Source of the DNA: Nocardioides okcheonensis
Lineage (GTDB): Bacteria > Actinomycetota > Actinomycetes > Propionibacteriales > Nocardioidaceae
Direction: 5' to 3'
Assembly (NCBI RefSeq): GCF_020991065.1
Contig: NZ_CP087710.1
Coordinates: forward strand, 2,480,001 to 2,544,000
DNA: 64,000 bases
Numbering within the stretch: position 1 is the first letter of the stretch; each line of letters begins with the position of its first letter. Shown piece by piece: positions 5,927 through 60,962 of this stretch. The position numbers were made by a program, and so were the translations under genes. The notes beneath the pieces were generated by a model. It was given only the letters and a program-made list of their open reading frames with translations. It was not told the origin of the DNA and did not search any database.

Positions 5927-6703
5927 GTGCTGACCCAGGCGGTCGTCGCGATCCTCGCCGCCGCCGTCGTCATGGGGTCGACGGCGGCGGTGAGCAAGAG
6001 GCGCGACCGGGTGGCCGACGTCGACGTGGCGTGGGGCCTGTCGTTCGTGGCGATCGCGGTCGCCCTCGCGCTCGTCTGGCCGGACGCCCACTCCTGGCTG
6101 CTCGCGCTGCTCGTCGCCGTCTGGGGCGGCCGGCTCGCGATCCACATCGCCCGCCGCTCCCGCGGCCACGGCGAGGACCCGCGCTACGAGAAGATGCTCG
6201 GCGGCCCGGGCTGGCACGCCGGCGCGGCGAAGGTGCTGCGCCGCGTCTTCGGCACGCAGGCGCTCGTCTCGTGGATCATCTCCTTCCCGCTCGTCGTCGG
6301 CGCCGCCTACGACGTGCGCTGGTGGCCCGTGGTCTGGTTCGGGGTCGTCGTCTGGGCGATCGGGCTCTACTTCGAGGTCGTCGGCGACGCCCAGCTCGAG
6401 GCCTACAAGGCCCGGCCGCGCGAGTCTCGTCCGAAGATCCTCGACACCGGCCTGTGGGGCTGGACCCGCCACCCCAACTACTTCGGCGACGCCTGCGTCT
6501 GGTGGGGCCTGTGGATCGCCGGCGCCCTGTCGCTCGGCTGGGTCCCGGGGCTGGCGACGATCTTCGCGCCGGTCGCGATGACCTTCTTCATCCGCAACGT
6601 CACCGGCGCCAAGCTGCTCGAGAAGACCATGTCGCAGCGCGAGGGCTGGGCCGACTACGCCGCCCGCGTGCCGCTGTTCTTCCCCCGCCCGCCCCGCCGC
6701 TGA
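5927..6703 (+). CDS. DUF1295 integral membrane protein (steroid 5-alpha-reductase-like)
   Basis: Polytopic membrane protein of 258 residues in the DUF1295 family, distantly related to steroid 5-alpha reductases and isoprenylcysteine methyltransferases. Several hydrophobic segments are seen (about 3-22, 30-48, 50-68, 108-125, 128-148, 185-215), with the family's C-terminal signature around WGWTRHPNYFGD and WADYAARVPLFFP. GTG at 5927 starts one base after the preceding stop. Counterpart of Rv0446c next to sigK in M. tuberculosis, so probably a reductase-like step on the lipid product of this operon. It is the last gene of the sigma-controlled operon; a tandem repeat element begins directly at its stop codon. 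Confidence 0.85.
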   Translation: MLTQAVVAILAAAVVMGSTAAVSKRRDRVADVDVAWGLSFVAIAVALALVWPDAHSWLLALLVAVWGGRLAIHIARRSRGHGEDPRYEKMLGGPGWHAGAAKVLRRVFGTQALVSWIISFPLVVGAAYDVRWWPVVWFGVVVWAIGLYFEVVGDAQLEAYKARPRESRPKILDTGLWGWTRHPNYFGDACVWWGLWIAGALSLGWVPGLATIFAPVAMTFFIRNVTGAKLLEKTMSQREGWADYAARVPLFFPRPPRR

Positions 6704-6753
6704 CCGGGCGGTTCCTCGCGCTGGATCGCGCCGACCGGGCGGTTCCTCGCGCT
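6702..6753. repeat. 31-bp tandem repeat, two copies (family C)
   Basis: Two identical 21-base copies at 6702-6722 and 6733-6753, core ACCGGGCGGTTCCTCGCGCT, spaced exactly 31 bases. The second copy runs into the TAGCGT promoter element of the next gene. The same unit, with R for the variable base, recurs five times at 27821-27961. Confidence 0.85.
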
Positions 6754-6758
6754 AGCGT
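6753..6758 (+). promoter_or_regulatory. -10 element TAGCGT of a leaderless gene
   Basis: TAGCGT ends 6 bases before the GTG at 6765, the spacing expected when transcription starts at the start codon. No Shine-Dalgarno sequence is present. The element is fused to the end of the second family C repeat copy. Confidence 0.55.
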
Positions 6759-6764
6759 CGTGCC

Positions 6765-7217
6765 GTGGAGCTGAGCGCACGGGAGGACACCCACCGGCGG
6801 ATGCTGCGCGCCCGCGACGAGATGGACCGGCTCTACGCCGAGCCGCTCGACATCCCGCACCTCGCAGCGGTGGCGCACCTCTCGCCCTCCCAGTTCGGGC
6901 GGGTGTTCCGCTCCGTCTACGGCGAGACCCCGCACCGCTACCTCCAGCGCCGTCGCGTCGAGCGGGCGATGACCCTGCTGCGCCAGACCGACCGGCCGGT
7001 CACCGACGTCGCGTGGGACGTCGGGTTCGCCAGCCTCGGCACCTTCAGCCGGACCTTCAGCAACGTCGTCGGCTGCTCGCCGTCGCAGTTCCGCGCGCGG
7101 CACGCACCCGTCGCGGTGCCGTCGTGCTTCATCGCCGCGTGGGCCCGACCGCGCGAGGCCGCCGGGCCGGCGAGGACAGCGGTTTCGGAGAAGCGCGCGG
7201 ACGGTGACGCTGGCTAG
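6765..7217 (+). CDS. Short AraC-family transcription regulator
   Basis: DNA-binding regulator of 150 residues consisting almost only of the AraC double helix-turn-helix (about 18-115): LDIPHLAAVAHLSPSQFGRVFRSVYGETPHRYL for helix-turn-helix 1 region and VTDVAWDVGFASLGTFSRTF for the second. There is no sensory N-terminal domain, so a ligand must be sensed otherwise or not at all. Directly followed by a VOC-fold gene and a cupin gene; short AraC proteins paired with VOC proteins are a common actinobacterial arrangement, so it probably controls this small operon. GTG start chosen by the leaderless -10 element; the Ala-rich tail (about 116-150) shows no known domain. Its stop codon TAG is itself part of the next promoter element. 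Confidence 0.85.
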   Translation: MELSAREDTHRRMLRARDEMDRLYAEPLDIPHLAAVAHLSPSQFGRVFRSVYGETPHRYLQRRRVERAMTLLRQTDRPVTDVAWDVGFASLGTFSRTFSNVVGCSPSQFRARHAPVAVPSCFIAAWARPREAAGPARTAVSEKRADGDAG

Positions 7218-10287: not shown

Positions 10288-10355
10288 GGGTGCAGTGAAG
10301 CGCACGTCCGCCGTCGCGACCACGGGAAACCGCGAAATCGCCGCGACGGGTCGAC

Positions 10356-10411
10356 ATCTGAGGACGTCCTGCAACCCGGGGGCCGGTTCCGGCTACAGGG
10401 CGTCCTCAGAT
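10356..10411. repeat. Palindromic intergenic element (family A variant)
   Basis: Two 16-base arms, 10356-10371 (ATCTGAGGACGTCCTG) and 10396-10411, pair with one G-T wobble around a 24-base loop. The arm begins with the same ATCTGAGGACG core as the larger element at 21351-21420. It lies between two minus-strand genes and could also act as a terminator for the upstream gene. Confidence 0.75.
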
Positions 10412-10419
10412 GACGGGTG

Positions 10420-21350: not shown

Positions 21351-21420
21351 CTGGGTATCTGAGGACGTTCTGGTGGGCGAAACCCCCGCTTCAACCACCA
21401 GAACGTCCGCAGATACCCAG
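21351..21420. repeat. Large palindromic element (family A)
   Basis: Arms of 26 bases at 21351-21376 and 21395-21420 pair with a single mismatch; loop of 18 bases. Arm core GGTATCTGAGGACGTTCTGG. Related elements are at 48186-48249 and 10356-10411. Just beyond it, 21424-21437 is a separate perfect 14-base palindrome (AACGGCC-GGCCGTT). It lies 3' of the FtsX-type permease gene and upstream of the TetR promoter. Confidence 0.85.
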
Positions 21421-25529: not shown

Positions 25530-27098
25530 TCAGACGGCGGCGACGGTGAGCACGACCTGCGCCCGGACGTCGTCGGCGAGCCAGCGCCGACGCGCGCGCA
25601 CCAGGCGGCGGGTCGACCACGCGAGGAACGGGACGGCCAGCGCGGGCGGCAGCCAGGCCCACGGCAGCGCGCCGGCCGCGGTGAAGAGCATCGCGGTGAT
25701 CGTGGTGACCAGCGAGAGCCGACCGGCGTACCCGGCCATCGCCGCGTGCGGCGCGGGGGTGGCGCGCGGGGACGAGAGGTCGGCGGCGTAGGGCGAGCGC
25801 ACCGACCAGCTCATCGAGATCGCCAGGACCTGCACCAGCACCACCGCCCAGCAGGCGGCGACGGAGAGCCCGGTGACCAGGGGAGGTACGCCGTTGCGCA
25901 GCAGCGCGAGCAGGAGGGTCACGCCCGACACGCCGGCGAGGCACTCGGCGACCACGCGGGCCCGCGTGCCGAAGACGAGCGCGGCCGGCACCGGCAGGGT
26001 CTCGCGCCAGACCATGCCCTTGCCGTCCAGGCACCACGCGTTGACGCCGAAGAGCAGCGCCGCGCCGCTGGCGGTCAGTCCCGGCAGCAGCATGACCGAG
26101 CTCCACTGCAGCCCGGCGACCAGCGCCACCAGCCCGGGGCCGATGCCGAGCACGAGCAGGCCGCGGCGCATCCCGACCGAGCGCCACACCGACCCGCGGT
26201 CGAGCCGACGCAGCAGCGCCGCCTCGGGGGTGCCCCAGCGCGGGCGCGGCGCCGGGCGCGCCTCGTGGACGCCCGACTGGACGCGCAGCTCCTCGCGCGG
26301 CGGGAGGCCGAGGGCCCAGGCGGCGGGGACGGCCCCCACCACGACGGCGACCGCGGCGACGAGCAGCAGGACGACGACCGCGAGCGGCCAGGCGGACGTC
26401 TGCATCACCTCGGTGAGCCGGGTCGTGGGGAGCGCACTCACGGCCGGCAGCAGCCATCCCGCGAGCTGGAGGCCGCCCACGAGGAGCGCGAGCAGCAGGC
26501 CGCCGACCCGGACCGTGAGGACCCCGCGGGGCGTGCGGCGTACGCCCTCGACGGCCCAGCCGACCGCCTGCCCCACCGCGGTCGCGGCGAGCACCCACGC
26601 CACCACCACGACCTGCGCGCCGAGCAGGTGCTCCTCGGGGGTGACCAGCGCCGTCACGGCGAGCAGGCCCCACATCTGGACCAGCCACGCGAGGTTGACG
26701 GGGGCGAGCACCAGCGCGCCGAGGTGCTCGGTGGTCGGACCGACCGGGTGGATCGCGGCCTCGCTGCGCGAGAGCAGCTCGCGCCCGCCGCCGCTGCCGA
26801 CGGCGGCGGTCACCGCCAGGGCCATGAAGCCGACGAACGCCGGACCGAGGTTGCCGGTCAGCACCGACAGCAGGTCGTCGAAGGCGGTCGCGAGGTCGCC
26901 GTCCGCGCCCCGGACCTCGGCGGCGCGGGAGGCGTCCGCGATCGCGGCGGGGACCGTCGCGAAGACCACCGTGAGGGCGAGCACGACGAGCGCGCCGGAC
27001 GTCGCGGCCACCCGGCGCCGCACGGTCCGGGCACGGAACGCGACGAGGTGCCGCGCGTCGGTCGCGGCGCCGAGCCAGCCGTCAGTCGAGGAGCGCAC
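25530..27098 (-). CDS. ABC transporter permease-like membrane protein
   Basis: Large polytopic membrane protein, 522 residues, with about ten to twelve hydrophobic segments (for example around 30-50, 75-95, 118-140, 150-170, 190-215, 235-262, 320-350, 395-440, 480-505). I recognise no named permease domain, but it directly follows an ABC ATPase whose gene it overlaps by 17 bases, so it is almost certainly the membrane partner. GTG at 27098 is inferred as start, since the cytoplasmic N-terminus then has a usual length of about 28 residues before the first helix. The exported or handled substrate cannot be predicted. Confidence 0.75.
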   Translation of the reverse strand: MRSSTDGWLGAATDARHLVAFRARTVRRRVAATSGALVVLALTVVFATVPAAIADASRAAEVRGADGDLATAFDDLLSVLTGNLGPAFVGFMALAVTAAVGSGGGRELLSRSEAAIHPVGPTTEHLGALVLAPVNLAWLVQMWGLLAVTALVTPEEHLLGAQVVVVAWVLAATAVGQAVGWAVEGVRRTPRGVLTVRVGGLLLALLVGGLQLAGWLLPAVSALPTTRLTEVMQTSAWPLAVVVLLLVAAVAVVVGAVPAAWALGLPPREELRVQSGVHEARPAPRPRWGTPEAALLRRLDRGSVWRSVGMRRGLLVLGIGPGLVALVAGLQWSSVMLLPGLTASGAALLFGVNAWCLDGKGMVWRETLPVPAALVFGTRARVVAECLAGVSGVTLLLALLRNGVPPLVTGLSVAACWAVVLVQVLAISMSWSVRSPYAADLSSPRATPAPHAAMAGYAGRLSLVTTITAMLFTAAGALPWAWLPPALAVPFLAWSTRRLVRARRRWLADDVRAQVVLTVAAV

Positions 27099-27777
27099 GG
27101 TAGGCCTCGCCGGTGAGGTCGCCGGCCTGCATCGCGGCGACCCGGTTGCCGCCGCGCAGGACGACGGCCTCGCCGCACGCCTCGAGCGCGAGCTCGCGCA
27201 GGTGGGTCGACAGCAGGACGCAGGCGCCGCGCGCGCAGGCGTCGGCGACGACCTCGAGGGTCGCGTCGACACCGATCGGGTCGACGCCGTCGAAGGGCTC
27301 GTCGAGCAGCAGCACGGAGGGCTCGTGGAGCGCGGCCAGCACGACGCTGAGCCGCCGGCTCATGCCGTGGCTGAACCCGCCGACCACGCGGTGGGCGACG
27401 TCGCCGAGCTCGAAGCGCTCCAGCAGGTCGCGCCCGCGTCCCTCCCAGTCGTCCATCCGCCGCAGCCGGGCGGAGAGCTGGAGGTGCTCCCACGGGGTCG
27501 CCCGCGGCACCAGGCCGCCCACGTCGGGGCAGTAGCCGACGGCCCGCTTCACGCCGAGCGGGTCGGTGGCGGCGTCGTGGCCCGCGACGGTGACCGAGCC
27601 GGCGGTCGGCGGCACGACGCCGGCGAGCACCTTCATCGTCGTCGACTTGCCCGCGCCGTTGCGCCCGAGCAGCGCGGTCGCCCGTCCGGCGGCGGCGCTC
27701 AGGTCGACCCCCGAGACGGCCTCGACGTCACCGAAGCGGACATGCAGGTCGCGCACGACGACGGCGGGAGTGCTCAC
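27082..27777 (-). CDS. ABC transporter ATP-binding protein
   Basis: Nucleotide-binding subunit, 231 residues, of the ABC-2/CcmA type. Walker A LGRNGAGKST (38-47), signature position FSHGMSRRLS instead of the canonical LSGGQ, Walker B VLLLDEPFDGVDP and H-loop STHLRE are visible. The non-canonical signature is common in drug-type and lantibiotic-immunity ABC ATPases. GTG at 27777 is preferred on family alignment; an ATG nine codons upstream (27804) is an alternative. Partner is the membrane protein that overlaps its 3' end. The region upstream is filled by the family C repeat array. Confidence 0.88.
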   Translation of the reverse strand: MSTPAVVVRDLHVRFGDVEAVSGVDLSAAAGRATALLGRNGAGKSTTMKVLAGVVPPTAGSVTVAGHDAATDPLGVKRAVGYCPDVGGLVPRATPWEHLQLSARLRRMDDWEGRGRDLLERFELGDVAHRVVGGFSHGMSRRLSVVLAALHEPSVLLLDEPFDGVDPIGVDATLEVVADACARGACVLLSTHLRELALEACGEAVVLRGGNRVAAMQAGDLTGEAYRALLD

Positions 27778-27820
27778 CGGAGAAGTCTCCCCGAGCGAGC
27801 GCATCCTGACAGCCGAATCG

Positions 27821-27961
27821 AGCGGGCAGTTCCTCGCGCTGGAACCCGTCCACCGGGCAGTTCCTCGCGCTGGCGCGCACCGACCGGGCACTTCCTCGCC
27901 GTTGCAGCGCGAGGAAGTGCCCGGTCAGCGCCCCGCAGCGCGAGGAAGTGCCCGCTCGGTC
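27821..27961. repeat. Array of five 31-bp-spaced repeats with 18-bp hairpin (family C)
   Basis: Three direct copies start at 27821, 27852 and 27883 (exactly 31 bases apart) and two inverted copies at 27905 and 27936 (again 31 apart). Core GGGCAGTTCCTCGCGCTGG, with C for G in copies 3-5. Copy 3 and the first inverted copy form a perfect 18-base stem (27882-27899 with 27909-27926) and 9-base loop. The unit also occurs twice at 6702-6753. The array lies between a divergent-free gene pair: start of the ABC ATPase on one side, stop of the fadB-like gene on the other. Confidence 0.88.
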
Positions 27962-30185
27962 AGGCGGGGAAGGAGCCCCCGGAGGCGGCCAGGTCGCGGA
28001 GGTACGCCGTCGGGCGGAACCGCTCGCCGTAGACGTCCGCCAGCTCGTCGGCCCGGGCCAGGAACGCCGCCAGCCCGACCGGGCCGGTGCCGCGACCGTG
28101 CTCGTCCAGTGCCTGCCAGCCGGTCATGAACTGCGCCGCACCGCCGGTGAGGGCCGGGAAGCCGATGCCCATGATCGAGCCGATGTTGGCCGCGGCCGCG
28201 GAGGTGATGACGCCCTCCTCGAAGCACTTCGCGGTCTCGAGCGCCTCGATGAACAGCATCCGGTCGCGCATGTCGCGGATCGGGACCTGCTGCTCGGCGA
28301 CCGGGAAGTGCTCGGCGAGCCCCGGCCACAGCGTCGTACGCCGCCCGGACTCGTCGTAGTCGTAGAACCCGGCGCCCTTCAGCCGCGACGGGCGACCCAG
28401 GTCGATCATCGTCGCGATGACGTCGCCCGCGGGGTAGTCGCCGAGGTCGACGCCGTCGCGGGCCGCGGCCTCCTCGGTGGCCTTGCGGATCTTGGCCATC
28501 AGCTCCATGTTGAGCTCGTCGCTGATCTGCAGCGGCCCGACCGGGAAGCCGGCCGAGGTGGCGGCGCGCTCCAGCGAGACCGGGTGGACGCCCTCGGCGA
28601 GCATCGCGAGGCCCTCGTTGATCTGGGTGCCGATGACGCGCGAGGTGTAGAAACCGCGCGAGTCGTTGACGACGATCGGGGTCTTGCGGATCTGCTGGAC
28701 GACGTCGTACGCCTTGGCCAGCGCGGCGTCCGAGGTCTCCGCGCCGCGGATGATCTCGACCAGCGGCATCTTGTCGACGGGGCTGAAGAAGTGGAGCCCG
28801 ATGAAGTCCGCCGGCCGGTCCACGCCGGTGGCGAGCTCGGTGATCGGCAGCGTCGAGGTGTTGGAGCACAGCAGTGCGTCGGCGTCGACGTGCGCGGCGA
28901 CCTCGGCGAACACCTTCGCCTTGAGCGACGGGTCCTCGAAGACCGCCTCGATCACCAGGTCGCAGCCGGCCAGGTCGGCGGCGTCGGCCGTCGGCGTGAT
29001 CCGGGCCAGCAGCGCGTCGGCCTTGTCCTGGGTGATCTTCCCGCGCTCCACGCCCTTGGCGTTGAGCTTCTCGGTGTACGCCCTGCCGCGCTCCGCCGCC
29101 TCCAGGGAGACGTCCTTGAGCACGACCTGCATCCCCGCGCGGGCGCAGGAGTACGCGATGCCGGCGCCCATCATCCCGGCGCCGAGGACCGCGACCTTCG
29201 TGGCCTGCCAGCGCTCGACGCCCTGGGGGCGCAGCGAGCCGGAGTTGATCGCCTGGAGGTCGAAGAAGAAGGCCTGGATCATGTTCTTGGCCTGCTGGTT
29301 GACCACCAGGTCGGTGAAGTAGCGGGTCTCGATCCGCGACGCGGTGTCGAAGTCGACCTGCGCGCCCTCGACCGCCGCGCTCATGATCGCGCGGGGCGCG
29401 GGATAGACGGCGCCCTTGGTCTGCTTGCGCAGCAGCGCCGGGAAGGCCGGCAGGAACTGCGCGAGGGCAGGCGTCCTCGGGGTGCCGCCGGGCATCTTGT
29501 AGCCGGCGCGGTCCCACGGGTTGCGGGCGGCGTCCTCGTCGTCGCGGTGCTCGAGGATCCACGCCTTCGCGGCCGGCACCAGCTCCTCGCGGGTCGCCAC
29601 GAGCTCGTCGACCAGGCCCTTCGCCAGCGCGCCCCTCGGGTCGAACTGGGTGCCGGGCATCAGCACGTCCATCAGCGCCGACTGGAGTCCGAGCATGCGT
29701 ACGACGCGGGTGACCCCGCCGCCGCCGGGCAGCAGGCCGAGGGTCGACTCGGGCAGCCCGATCTTGACCGAGCGGTCGTCGACGGCGATGCGGCGGTTGG
29801 CGGCCAGCGCGATCTCGAGGCCGCCGCCGAGCGCGGCGCCGTTGATGGCCGCGACGACGGGGCGGGGGTACGTCTCCAGCGCGCGGAGGCTGGCCTTGAC
29901 CGCCTCGCTCATCGCGAAGATCTCCGGCGCGTCGTCCGGGGTCGCGGTGACCATGCTCTTGAGGTTGCCGCCGGCGAAGAAGGTCTTCTTCGCGCTGGCC
30001 AGCACGACGCCGGTGACGTCGTCGACCTCGTCCTGCAGCCGCTGGACGGCCGCCTGCATCGACGCCTGGTAGAGCTCGTTCATGGTGTTGGCGCTGGCGG
30101 TGGGGTCGTCGAGCGTGAGGGTGACGATTCCGTCGGCGTCGCGGTCGTAGCGGACGGCGGTCTCAGTGGTGGTGGTGGTGCTCAT
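27960..30185 (-). CDS. Trifunctional-type fatty acid oxidation protein (enoyl-CoA hydratase / 3-hydroxyacyl-CoA dehydrogenase)
   Basis: Multifunctional beta-oxidation alpha subunit, 741 residues. N-terminal crotonase domain (about 10-200): GAALGGGLEIALAANRR oxyanion loop and GLPESTLGLLPGGGG with the catalytic Glu. Then NAD-binding 3-hydroxyacyl-CoA dehydrogenase domain with VAVLGAGMMGAGIAYS near 332-347, the SNTST and GLHFFSPV segments with the catalytic His, and two C-terminal dehydrogenase domains (PVGPLQISDE). It hydrates enoyl-CoA and oxidises the hydroxyacyl-CoA; the thiolase encoded upstream completes the cycle. ATG at 30185 has AGGA six bases before. Family B palindrome separates it from the thiolase gene. 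Confidence 0.93.
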   Translation of the reverse strand: MSTTTTTETAVRYDRDADGIVTLTLDDPTASANTMNELYQASMQAAVQRLQDEVDDVTGVVLASAKKTFFAGGNLKSMVTATPDDAPEIFAMSEAVKASLRALETYPRPVVAAINGAALGGGLEIALAANRRIAVDDRSVKIGLPESTLGLLPGGGGVTRVVRMLGLQSALMDVLMPGTQFDPRGALAKGLVDELVATREELVPAAKAWILEHRDDEDAARNPWDRAGYKMPGGTPRTPALAQFLPAFPALLRKQTKGAVYPAPRAIMSAAVEGAQVDFDTASRIETRYFTDLVVNQQAKNMIQAFFFDLQAINSGSLRPQGVERWQATKVAVLGAGMMGAGIAYSCARAGMQVVLKDVSLEAAERGRAYTEKLNAKGVERGKITQDKADALLARITPTADAADLAGCDLVIEAVFEDPSLKAKVFAEVAAHVDADALLCSNTSTLPITELATGVDRPADFIGLHFFSPVDKMPLVEIIRGAETSDAALAKAYDVVQQIRKTPIVVNDSRGFYTSRVIGTQINEGLAMLAEGVHPVSLERAATSAGFPVGPLQISDELNMELMAKIRKATEEAAARDGVDLGDYPAGDVIATMIDLGRPSRLKGAGFYDYDESGRRTTLWPGLAEHFPVAEQQVPIRDMRDRMLFIEALETAKCFEEGVITSAAAANIGSIMGIGFPALTGGAAQFMTGWQALDEHGRGTGPVGLAAFLARADELADVYGERFRPTAYLRDLAASGGSFPA

Positions 30186-30201: not shown

Positions 30202-30268
30202 GGGGTAGTCCAGTGAGAATCGGTCGTGATCCGGGCCCGGGGGCAGCCAGATCTCACTGGACTACCCC
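30202..30268. repeat. Palindromic intergenic element (family B)
   Basis: Perfect 17-base arms at 30202-30218 (GGGGTAGTCCAGTGAGA) and 30252-30268 around a 33-base loop that is itself GC-palindromic (CCGGGCCCGG). The same arm occurs three times at 60821-60915. Lies between thiolase and fadB-like genes. Confidence 0.85.
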
Positions 30269-48185: not shown

Positions 48186-48249
48186 GGTATCTACGGACAA
48201 ACTGGTGGGCGAAACGGCTCTGGCACCCACCAGAACGTCCGTAGATACC
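48186..48249. repeat. Palindromic intergenic element (family A)
   Basis: Arms of 24 bases, 48186-48209 (start GGTATCTACGGAC) and 48226-48249, pair except for a 3-base internal mismatch; 16-base loop. The CTGGTGGGCGAAAC block is shared with the element at 21351-21420. Lies in the divergent intergenic region between the racemase-type gene and PadR. Confidence 0.83.
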
Positions 48250-60635: not shown

Positions 60636-60962
60636 GTCATGTGGCTCGGAGTCATTGGCTCGCTCCGCTCGCGGTGTCGCTGCGCTCGTAACCCGGTGGT
60701 CAGCCGGCGCGCCGCGACGAACCCCCGACCTCCAGTCGGTCGATCAGCGCCGGGCCGACCATCCGCTGGTCGAGGAAGGCGCTCTGGCGCCTGTCACGAG
60801 ACCCGGTCGGCCCCCCGATGTAGTCCAGTGAGCGTTGGCTGCCACGCCGCGATAGTCCAGTGAGGGATGGCTGCCCCGAGCCCCCGGACACAGCCATCCC
60901 TCACTGGACTACCCCGACCAGCCGACCCGGTCGCCTAAACCCCAGCGCGACGAGCTTCCCGC
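60636..60962. other. Intergenic region between ugd and glycosyltransferases
   Basis: No gene supported in these 327 bases. 60645-60690 carries a GGCTCGCTCCGCTCGC-type interspersed-repeat-like tract. 60821-60915 holds family B palindromes. The genes flanking it converge (ugd on plus, glycosyltransferase on minus), so it is where transcripts from both sides should end. Confidence 0.7.
60821..60915. repeat. Family B palindrome with extra half copy
   Basis: TAGTCCAGTGAG begins a half copy at 60821 and a full left arm at 60853-60873 whose inverted partner is 60891-60911, a perfect 21-base stem with a 17-base loop. Same arm as the element at 30202-30268. Confidence 0.85.

Follow-up and report, generated by a model that had tools for sequence, protein, structure and literature searches.

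Helically phased repeat arrays behind stop codons in Nocardioides, and their link to a gene family with a predicted nuclease fold

Short repeats that keep an exact distance from one another, and then turn round and go on in the opposite orientation, raise the question of what holds them in order. One such array lies at 27819-27958 of a 64,000-nucleotide stretch of Nocardioides okcheonensis DNA (the window; G000:C1:2480001-2544000 of a 4.47-Mb single-contig genome). From evidence that is comparative throughout, we propose, with a probability of roughly 55%, that this array is a gene-less dispersed copy of the arrays that bound a nuclease-type gene elsewhere in the chromosome (P0001, G000:C1:882558-883556, outside the window), and that its unit is read by a P0001-type protein. 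Our results suggest an undescribed family of selfish or regulatory elements.

Phasing of the units

The unit is about 23 bp long, with the logo YGACCGGGCASTTCCTCGCGCTG (322 units, the cores being exact by selection; the unit limits, -4 to +18, come from this logo), and is followed by a variable spacer. As the first-pass annotation had described, the window array holds five copies in 31-bp steps within each orientation. Three are direct, on the + strand, at 27819..27841, 27850..27872 and 27881..27903 (cores at 27823, 27854 and 27885, that of the first, 27823-27837, being exact), and two are inverted, on the - strand, at 27905..27927 and 27936..27958 (cores at 27909-27923 and 27940-27954). The innermost units, the third and fourth, stand 1 bp apart and pair in an 18-bp perfect stem (27882-27899 with 27909-27926) around a 9-nt loop; this stem, like the second array of two + strand units at 6701..6723 and 6732..6754 (cores at 6705 and 6736, again 31 bp apart), had also been correctly reported. 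The claim of strict phasing across the inversion holds for the helical register of about 10.5 bp and fails for the 31-bp register, since the innermost core starts are 24 bp apart on the + strand and the turn, measured core to core, is 39 bp long.

We confirmed that the array is real and more than chance. The whole genome contains 46 tandem pairs at up to two mismatches (27 forward, 19 reverse), all within the array loci examined there, and the reversed control pattern gave none at the same tolerance. In five Markov resamples of the window, a stricter threshold produced no tandems and a looser one produced two in one of the five. Rfam models had no match in the window at gathering scores. A scan for two exact cores separated by any gap of 1-31 bp, in one genome for each of 84,980 species, returned 82 stretches, all from Nocardioides except one from Streptomyces (period 36), which was taken as chance, and one from an Actinomycetota metagenome-assembled genome. 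A looser 31-bp pattern matched 29 of 341 genomes of the taxonomic family, all in one genus.

Copies without phasing, which the first-pass annotation had named as one result that would speak against it, were not found. Of the 275 direct spacings in 107 distinct arrays (scan loci plus our own genome, gathered with exact-core patterns that miss degenerate arrays), 269 measure 31 bp, the others being 32 (three), 41, 62 and 120 (one each); many of these loci are orthologous, and the raw counts here and below are not independent. Where orientation changes, it does so head to head (47 cases, against no tail-to-tail pair, in 19 genomes with exact cores and gaps of 0-30). The 68 turns measure 29 bp (5), 38 (27), 39 (10), 40 (2), 43 (1), 49 (10), 50 (7) or 51 (1), with single longer turns of 59, 60, 62, 69 and 88, and thus cluster at 29, 38-40 and 49-51 in steps of one helical turn. 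When each ortholog group contributes each length once (42 values), the circular R at 10.5 bp is 0.82, with a best period of 10.3; without the 38-40 class it is 0.75 at nearly the same phase (22 values). Turns of 43 and 88 are misfits. Orthologs of the window locus in six species have turns of 39, 39, 29, 29, 60 and 38, the turn of 60 containing a degenerate unit (29+31). Three helical turns therefore separate tandem copies, and copies on opposite sides of the inversion keep a helical rather than a 31-bp register.

In the 38-40 class, this constancy is not matched by likeness of the intervening DNA: adjacent units have spacers 0.39-0.40 alike, compared with 0.44 between different arrays, and the spacing stays at 31 bp. 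The corresponding 0.63-0.68 in the 49-51 class marks those arrays as younger or homogenised. The first-pass annotation had attributed the phasing to fixed-size contacts by protein or RNA rather than to duplication by slippage. Fixed contacts on whole helical turns are supported, because the spacing survives the divergence of the spacers and turns at the window locus differ from species to species by about 10 bp. As to the partner in these contacts, a DNA-bound protein would suit the phasing better than RNA. On the whole, the first-pass interpretation is partly supported. Not all units are alike: other unit sequences occur in G121, G122 and G146, in the last partly at 32 bp. Among close relatives of the window dialect, L138, L133, L134 and L123 have a period of 32 bp instead of 31, L123 mixing both.

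Gene ends and the partner gene

Position relative to genes is also regular. Among 94 arrays with both neighbours called (excluding single-unit arrays and six at locus edges), 57 lie in convergent, 37 in codirectional and none in divergent gaps, compared with 79, 169 and 74, respectively, of all gaps of at least 60 bp in the array loci, array gaps included. At 131 array ends a gene runs towards the array and its stop precedes the outermost unit; the YGA of the unit is itself the TGA stop in 64, the unit begins within 25 bp of the stop in 48, and it begins elsewhere in 19. Arrays of a single orientation (28 of the 94) are on the strand of the gene in all eight cases within codirectional gaps, and orthologous arrays persist behind the same genes in groups of up to eight loci.

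Both window arrays conform. Unit 5 abuts the stop codon (27960-27962) of a 3-hydroxyacyl-CoA dehydrogenase/enoyl-CoA hydratase gene (27960..30185, - strand; Pfam 3HCDH_N and ECH_1), which is upstream of the array on the - strand. Downstream on that strand, an ABC transporter ATPase gene (27082..27777, - strand; ABC_tran) starts 41 bp from unit 1. In the second array, TGA at 6701-6703 is the stop codon of a DUF1295 gene (5927-6703), and the next gene, of the AraC helix-turn-helix type, starts at 6765. Gene calls were made with a custom caller that uses GC by codon position. All 14 array loci of the genome lie at G000:C1 0.733-2.508 Mb, on one replichore, 0.20-1.97 Mb to one side of the parS cluster (2.7055 Mb), and all 27 pairs of G166 are likewise on one replichore; as a general rule this placement was rejected, since G121 has arrays on both arms.

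P0001 encodes 333 amino acids between rbpA and the 6-phosphogluconolactonase gene (pgl), and is flanked on each side by an inward-facing six-unit array of the window's unit; the first-pass annotation, made on the window, had no view of it. Its product is predicted to join an AbiEi-like part to a Vsr/EDxHD endonuclease fold (residues 211-319). In 36 family members, Pfam assigned AbiEi_4 to 22 and MTES_1575 to 18, with no Y1 transposase among the seven Pfam families listed, and E216, D250, H268 and D276 are invariant, possible counterparts of the E, D, H and D residues in the active site of EDxHD/Vsr endonucleases such as I-Bth0305I. Every one of the 19 genomes with a P0001 relative of at least 63% identity carries arrays, as do 10 of the 196 other genomes of the genus.

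We found 46 family genes, of which 45 could be scored for arrays (L143 lies at a contig edge): 25 from around the rbpA locus and 20 chosen by protein similarity before their flanks were inspected. A tandem array lies within 300 bp of 42 of the 45, on both sides in 29; by the same measure, only 8 of 133 other genes have one, six of them with periods of 22, 32, 33 or 44. Flanks that can be compared match better inverted than direct, except where units are near-palindromic (L152, L147). Eight of the 20 similarity-chosen relatives adjoin RbpA as divergent alleles, and 11 of the other 12 have arrays. Among 69 distinct proteins with arrays, the best period is 32 (24 proteins), 31 (19), 22 (10), 21, 43, 44 or 19 (three each), or 33, 42, 52 or 28 (one each), so that 64 fall in 21-22, 31-33 or 42-44 bp. 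A second set, whose loci L164-L193 partly repeat genes of the first, gave arrays at 26 of 29 Nocardioides loci. In the gap between a DUF349 gene and relA, L013 and L073 carry a gene-less array, and L200, L201 and L203 a family gene with arrays. The flanks of L185 have a period of 26 (52 on the other side), and 26 bp does not correspond to complete helical turns. Of 44 family genes (L130 also excluded), 41 have TRTCCACA at up to one mismatch in the 150 bp before the gene, about -48 or -59 from the start, compared with 5.9% of 2000 random 150-mers from the same loci; we take this motif to be DnaA-box-like. The family protein of L152, the one tried, had no match in plasmid or phage collections.

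Array and protein also vary together. At the rbpA locus, genomes without the window dialect of the unit carry other array sequences, most of them with a period of 32. Across 40 alleles of the locus, array similarity was associated with protein identity given RbpA (partial Mantel r 0.51, reached in 0 of 2000 permutations) and with RbpA given the protein (0.30; 1 of 2000). Where two loci share RbpA at 93% or more and the proteins are less than 50% alike, their arrays are 0.70 alike (61 pairs), compared with 0.68 for distant pairs (446) and 0.88 where the proteins are at least 60% alike (113 pairs). Array sequence thus tracks the protein allele more than the species, and since it does so despite near-identical RbpA, it seems that whole alleles, consisting of protein and arrays, change places at one fixed locus. 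Dispersed arrays speak the dialect of the gene-side arrays in their own genome (0.93, 0.82, 0.83, 0.85, 0.68 and 0.91 alike, compared with 0.38-0.65 between dialects), from samples of one dispersed locus each in G146, G166 and G215 and two in G122; within the window dialect the match ties (0.68 and 0.69 for G166, 0.91 twice for G215).

A proposed element and its alternatives

We propose that the P0001 protein, with its AbiEi-type DNA-binding part, reads the roughly 23-bp unit, and that several copies might line up along one face of the helix, with neighbours touching. Only spacings near whole turns would then be kept, at 31 bp in tandem and at 29, 38-40 or 49-51 bp head to head. A pair of inward-facing arrays could assemble a symmetric complex that, on its own gene, would provide autoregulation. 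If the nuclease domain is active, array-free sites could, through it, receive copies of the arrays or of the entire allele. Gene-less arrays might survive directly after stop codons, where they would do least harm, and the protein could spread or maintain them in trans, the part that RAYTs are believed to play for REPINs. The data themselves show the phasing, the stop-codon position, the gene-array link with its control, the dialect match and the predicted fold; from these we infer that the protein binds and cuts and that the arrays are mobile and spread in trans. More tentatively, and with somewhat less confidence than in the origin of the window array itself, we envisage a class of selfish elements, each with an AbiEi-EDxHD nuclease-type gene between inward arrays of its own sites and, depending on the family, two, three or four helical turns per repeat. 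Gene-less array copies would colonise stop codons, and the alleles, each with a dialect, would take one another's place at fixed loci such as rbpA-pgl.

Several results weigh against this proposal. Three of the 45 family genes have no scored array (L124, L153 and L159, with degenerate copies visible by eye in the first two), and in other genera 25 of 40 relatives have no tandem at all, 15 having some and seven the full signature; genus g3 has a tandem at 2 of 12 loci. Arrays persist in G056, G051 and G079, whose rbpA locus holds another allele, so their upkeep does not depend on the protein, and P0001 as a strictly required partner was rejected. Our search for a clean empty site or a target duplication yielded neither, its hits being either distant pairs or gaps occupied by other arrays; around a nested element in L067, the turns of four ortholog loci align too poorly to give borders. 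The gene-array link also partly reflects shared ancestry, many loci being orthologs, and the 3'-end rule. In L105, arrays bound an ordinary transcription unit with an SRPBCC-like and an ArsR-like open reading frame (read from translations), which we rejected as a second bounded nuclease; bounding a gene can hence follow from the 3'-end rule alone.

The leading alternative, which we consider unlikely, is that nothing is mobile and that the arrays are binding sites of this AbiEi-like protein or of another one, which the host retains at gene 3' ends for regulation or as roadblocks or insulators. Retention of orthologous arrays at the same gene ends and their strict orientation to the stop codon would be expected of host sites, and PMC7319586 describes autoregulation in the AbiEi family. 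Such sites sit poorly with the 61 pairs in which whole alleles differ, arrays included, between species of near-identical RbpA, with the nesting of a second repeat family inside an array in L067, and with the lack of an array at most gene ends (14 array loci in 4.47 Mb).

Less probable again is a role at the RNA level, with head-to-head arrays serving as bidirectional terminators or stabilisers of mRNA 3' ends. Placement directly after stops and absence from divergent gaps would suit hairpins, and the computed folding energy of the - strand RNA across 27818-27965 is -111.9 kcal/mol (z -9.6). In the 38-40 class, moreover, the innermost units covary at two variable core positions (0.83, compared with 0.73-0.74 for tandem neighbours and 0.51 for different arrays), which could come from pairing or from hairpin-templated repair. 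No such covariation appears in the 49-51 class, however (0.64 vs 0.70). The 28 single-orientation arrays, a form conserved over eight loci in one group, are unable to form this hairpin, and hairpin loops would not be expected to vary in steps of 10.5 bp. A search of 27500-28300 found no terminator-like site followed by a T-tract, although transcripts might also end without one. Plain tandem slippage with an inversion, without function, is very hard to credit. Some arrays were recently duplicated, as the alike spacers of the 49-51 class and one array of 11 near-identical direct units attest, but slippage is already contradicted by the exact period across diverged spacers, the helical turns, the fixed head-to-head order, the stop-codon position and the gene link.

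Related systems and implications

The nearest parallel is probably the REPIN/RAYT system. REP/REPIN sequences, as PMC3116915 describes them, are dispersed extragenic repeats, often in inverted pairs, that flank an endonuclease-type gene and form several families per genome. The Nocardioides repeats are likewise dispersed and likewise flank a partner gene. However, their putative enzyme (AbiEi plus the Vsr/EDxHD fold) is unrelated to the Y1 (HUH) tyrosine transposase, and the window-dialect unit YGACCGGGCASTTCCTCGCGCTG is no palindrome, although units vary by dialect and that of G121 is near-palindromic by eye; for these two reasons the system resembles REPIN/RAYT without being a member. Its arrays are, in addition, tandem and helically phased, with alleles replaced at a fixed locus.

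For AbiEi of the AbiE type IV toxin-antitoxin system, represented by Rv2827c, PMC7319586 reports 23-bp repeats near the gene, in inverted pairs 3 or 13 bp apart. The P0001 protein shares the predicted AbiEi-type DNA-binding fold, but it carries a fused nuclease fold, and arrays also occur far from its gene. At the P0001 locus, the neighbours are rbpA and pgl, with no AbiEii nucleotidyltransferase toxin gene, so P0001 is not part of an AbiE toxin-antitoxin operon. I-Bth0305I, an EDxHD homing endonuclease, is described in PMC3943268 as a multi-domain protein with a DNA-binding part; P0001 resembles it and Vsr in the predicted catalytic fold and in having a DNA-binding part, but is a free-standing gene bounded by repeat arrays and not an intron or intein reading frame. 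A search of the open-access literature, bioRxiv excluded, turned up no paper that links repeats of this kind to AbiEi, DUF559 or Nocardioides. Mycobacterial MIRU are intergenic tandem repeats that overlap a TGA stop, as the Nocardioides arrays do, but they are longer and are not known to have inverted halves, helical phasing or a partner gene.

Further repeats share the window. A second family, TAGTCCAGTGAGNNNTGGC, forms head-to-head pairs of total length 59 at 60821-60911 and 30206-30264, with a tandem copy 32 bp away at 60821, and recurs in L028 (59) and, nested in the turn of a window-unit array, in L067 (59). A third set, GGTATCTNNGGACNNNCTGGTGGG, forms head-to-head inverted pairs of constant total length 64 bp at 21354-21417, 48186-48249 and perhaps 10352-10415. 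The repeat families of the window include TAGTCCAGTGA and GGTATCT.

Across the clade, the arrays mark the 3' ends of specific genes. With turns of 29, 38-40 and 49-51 bp and periods of 22, 31, 32 and 43 bp, they also constitute natural spacing experiments on how a protein might read helical phase. If our proposal is true, REPIN-like dispersed repeats would have evolved a second time, with a nuclease of unrelated origin, and genes annotated at present as hypothetical or 'AbiEi family antitoxin domain-containing' would gain a context and a candidate binding site.
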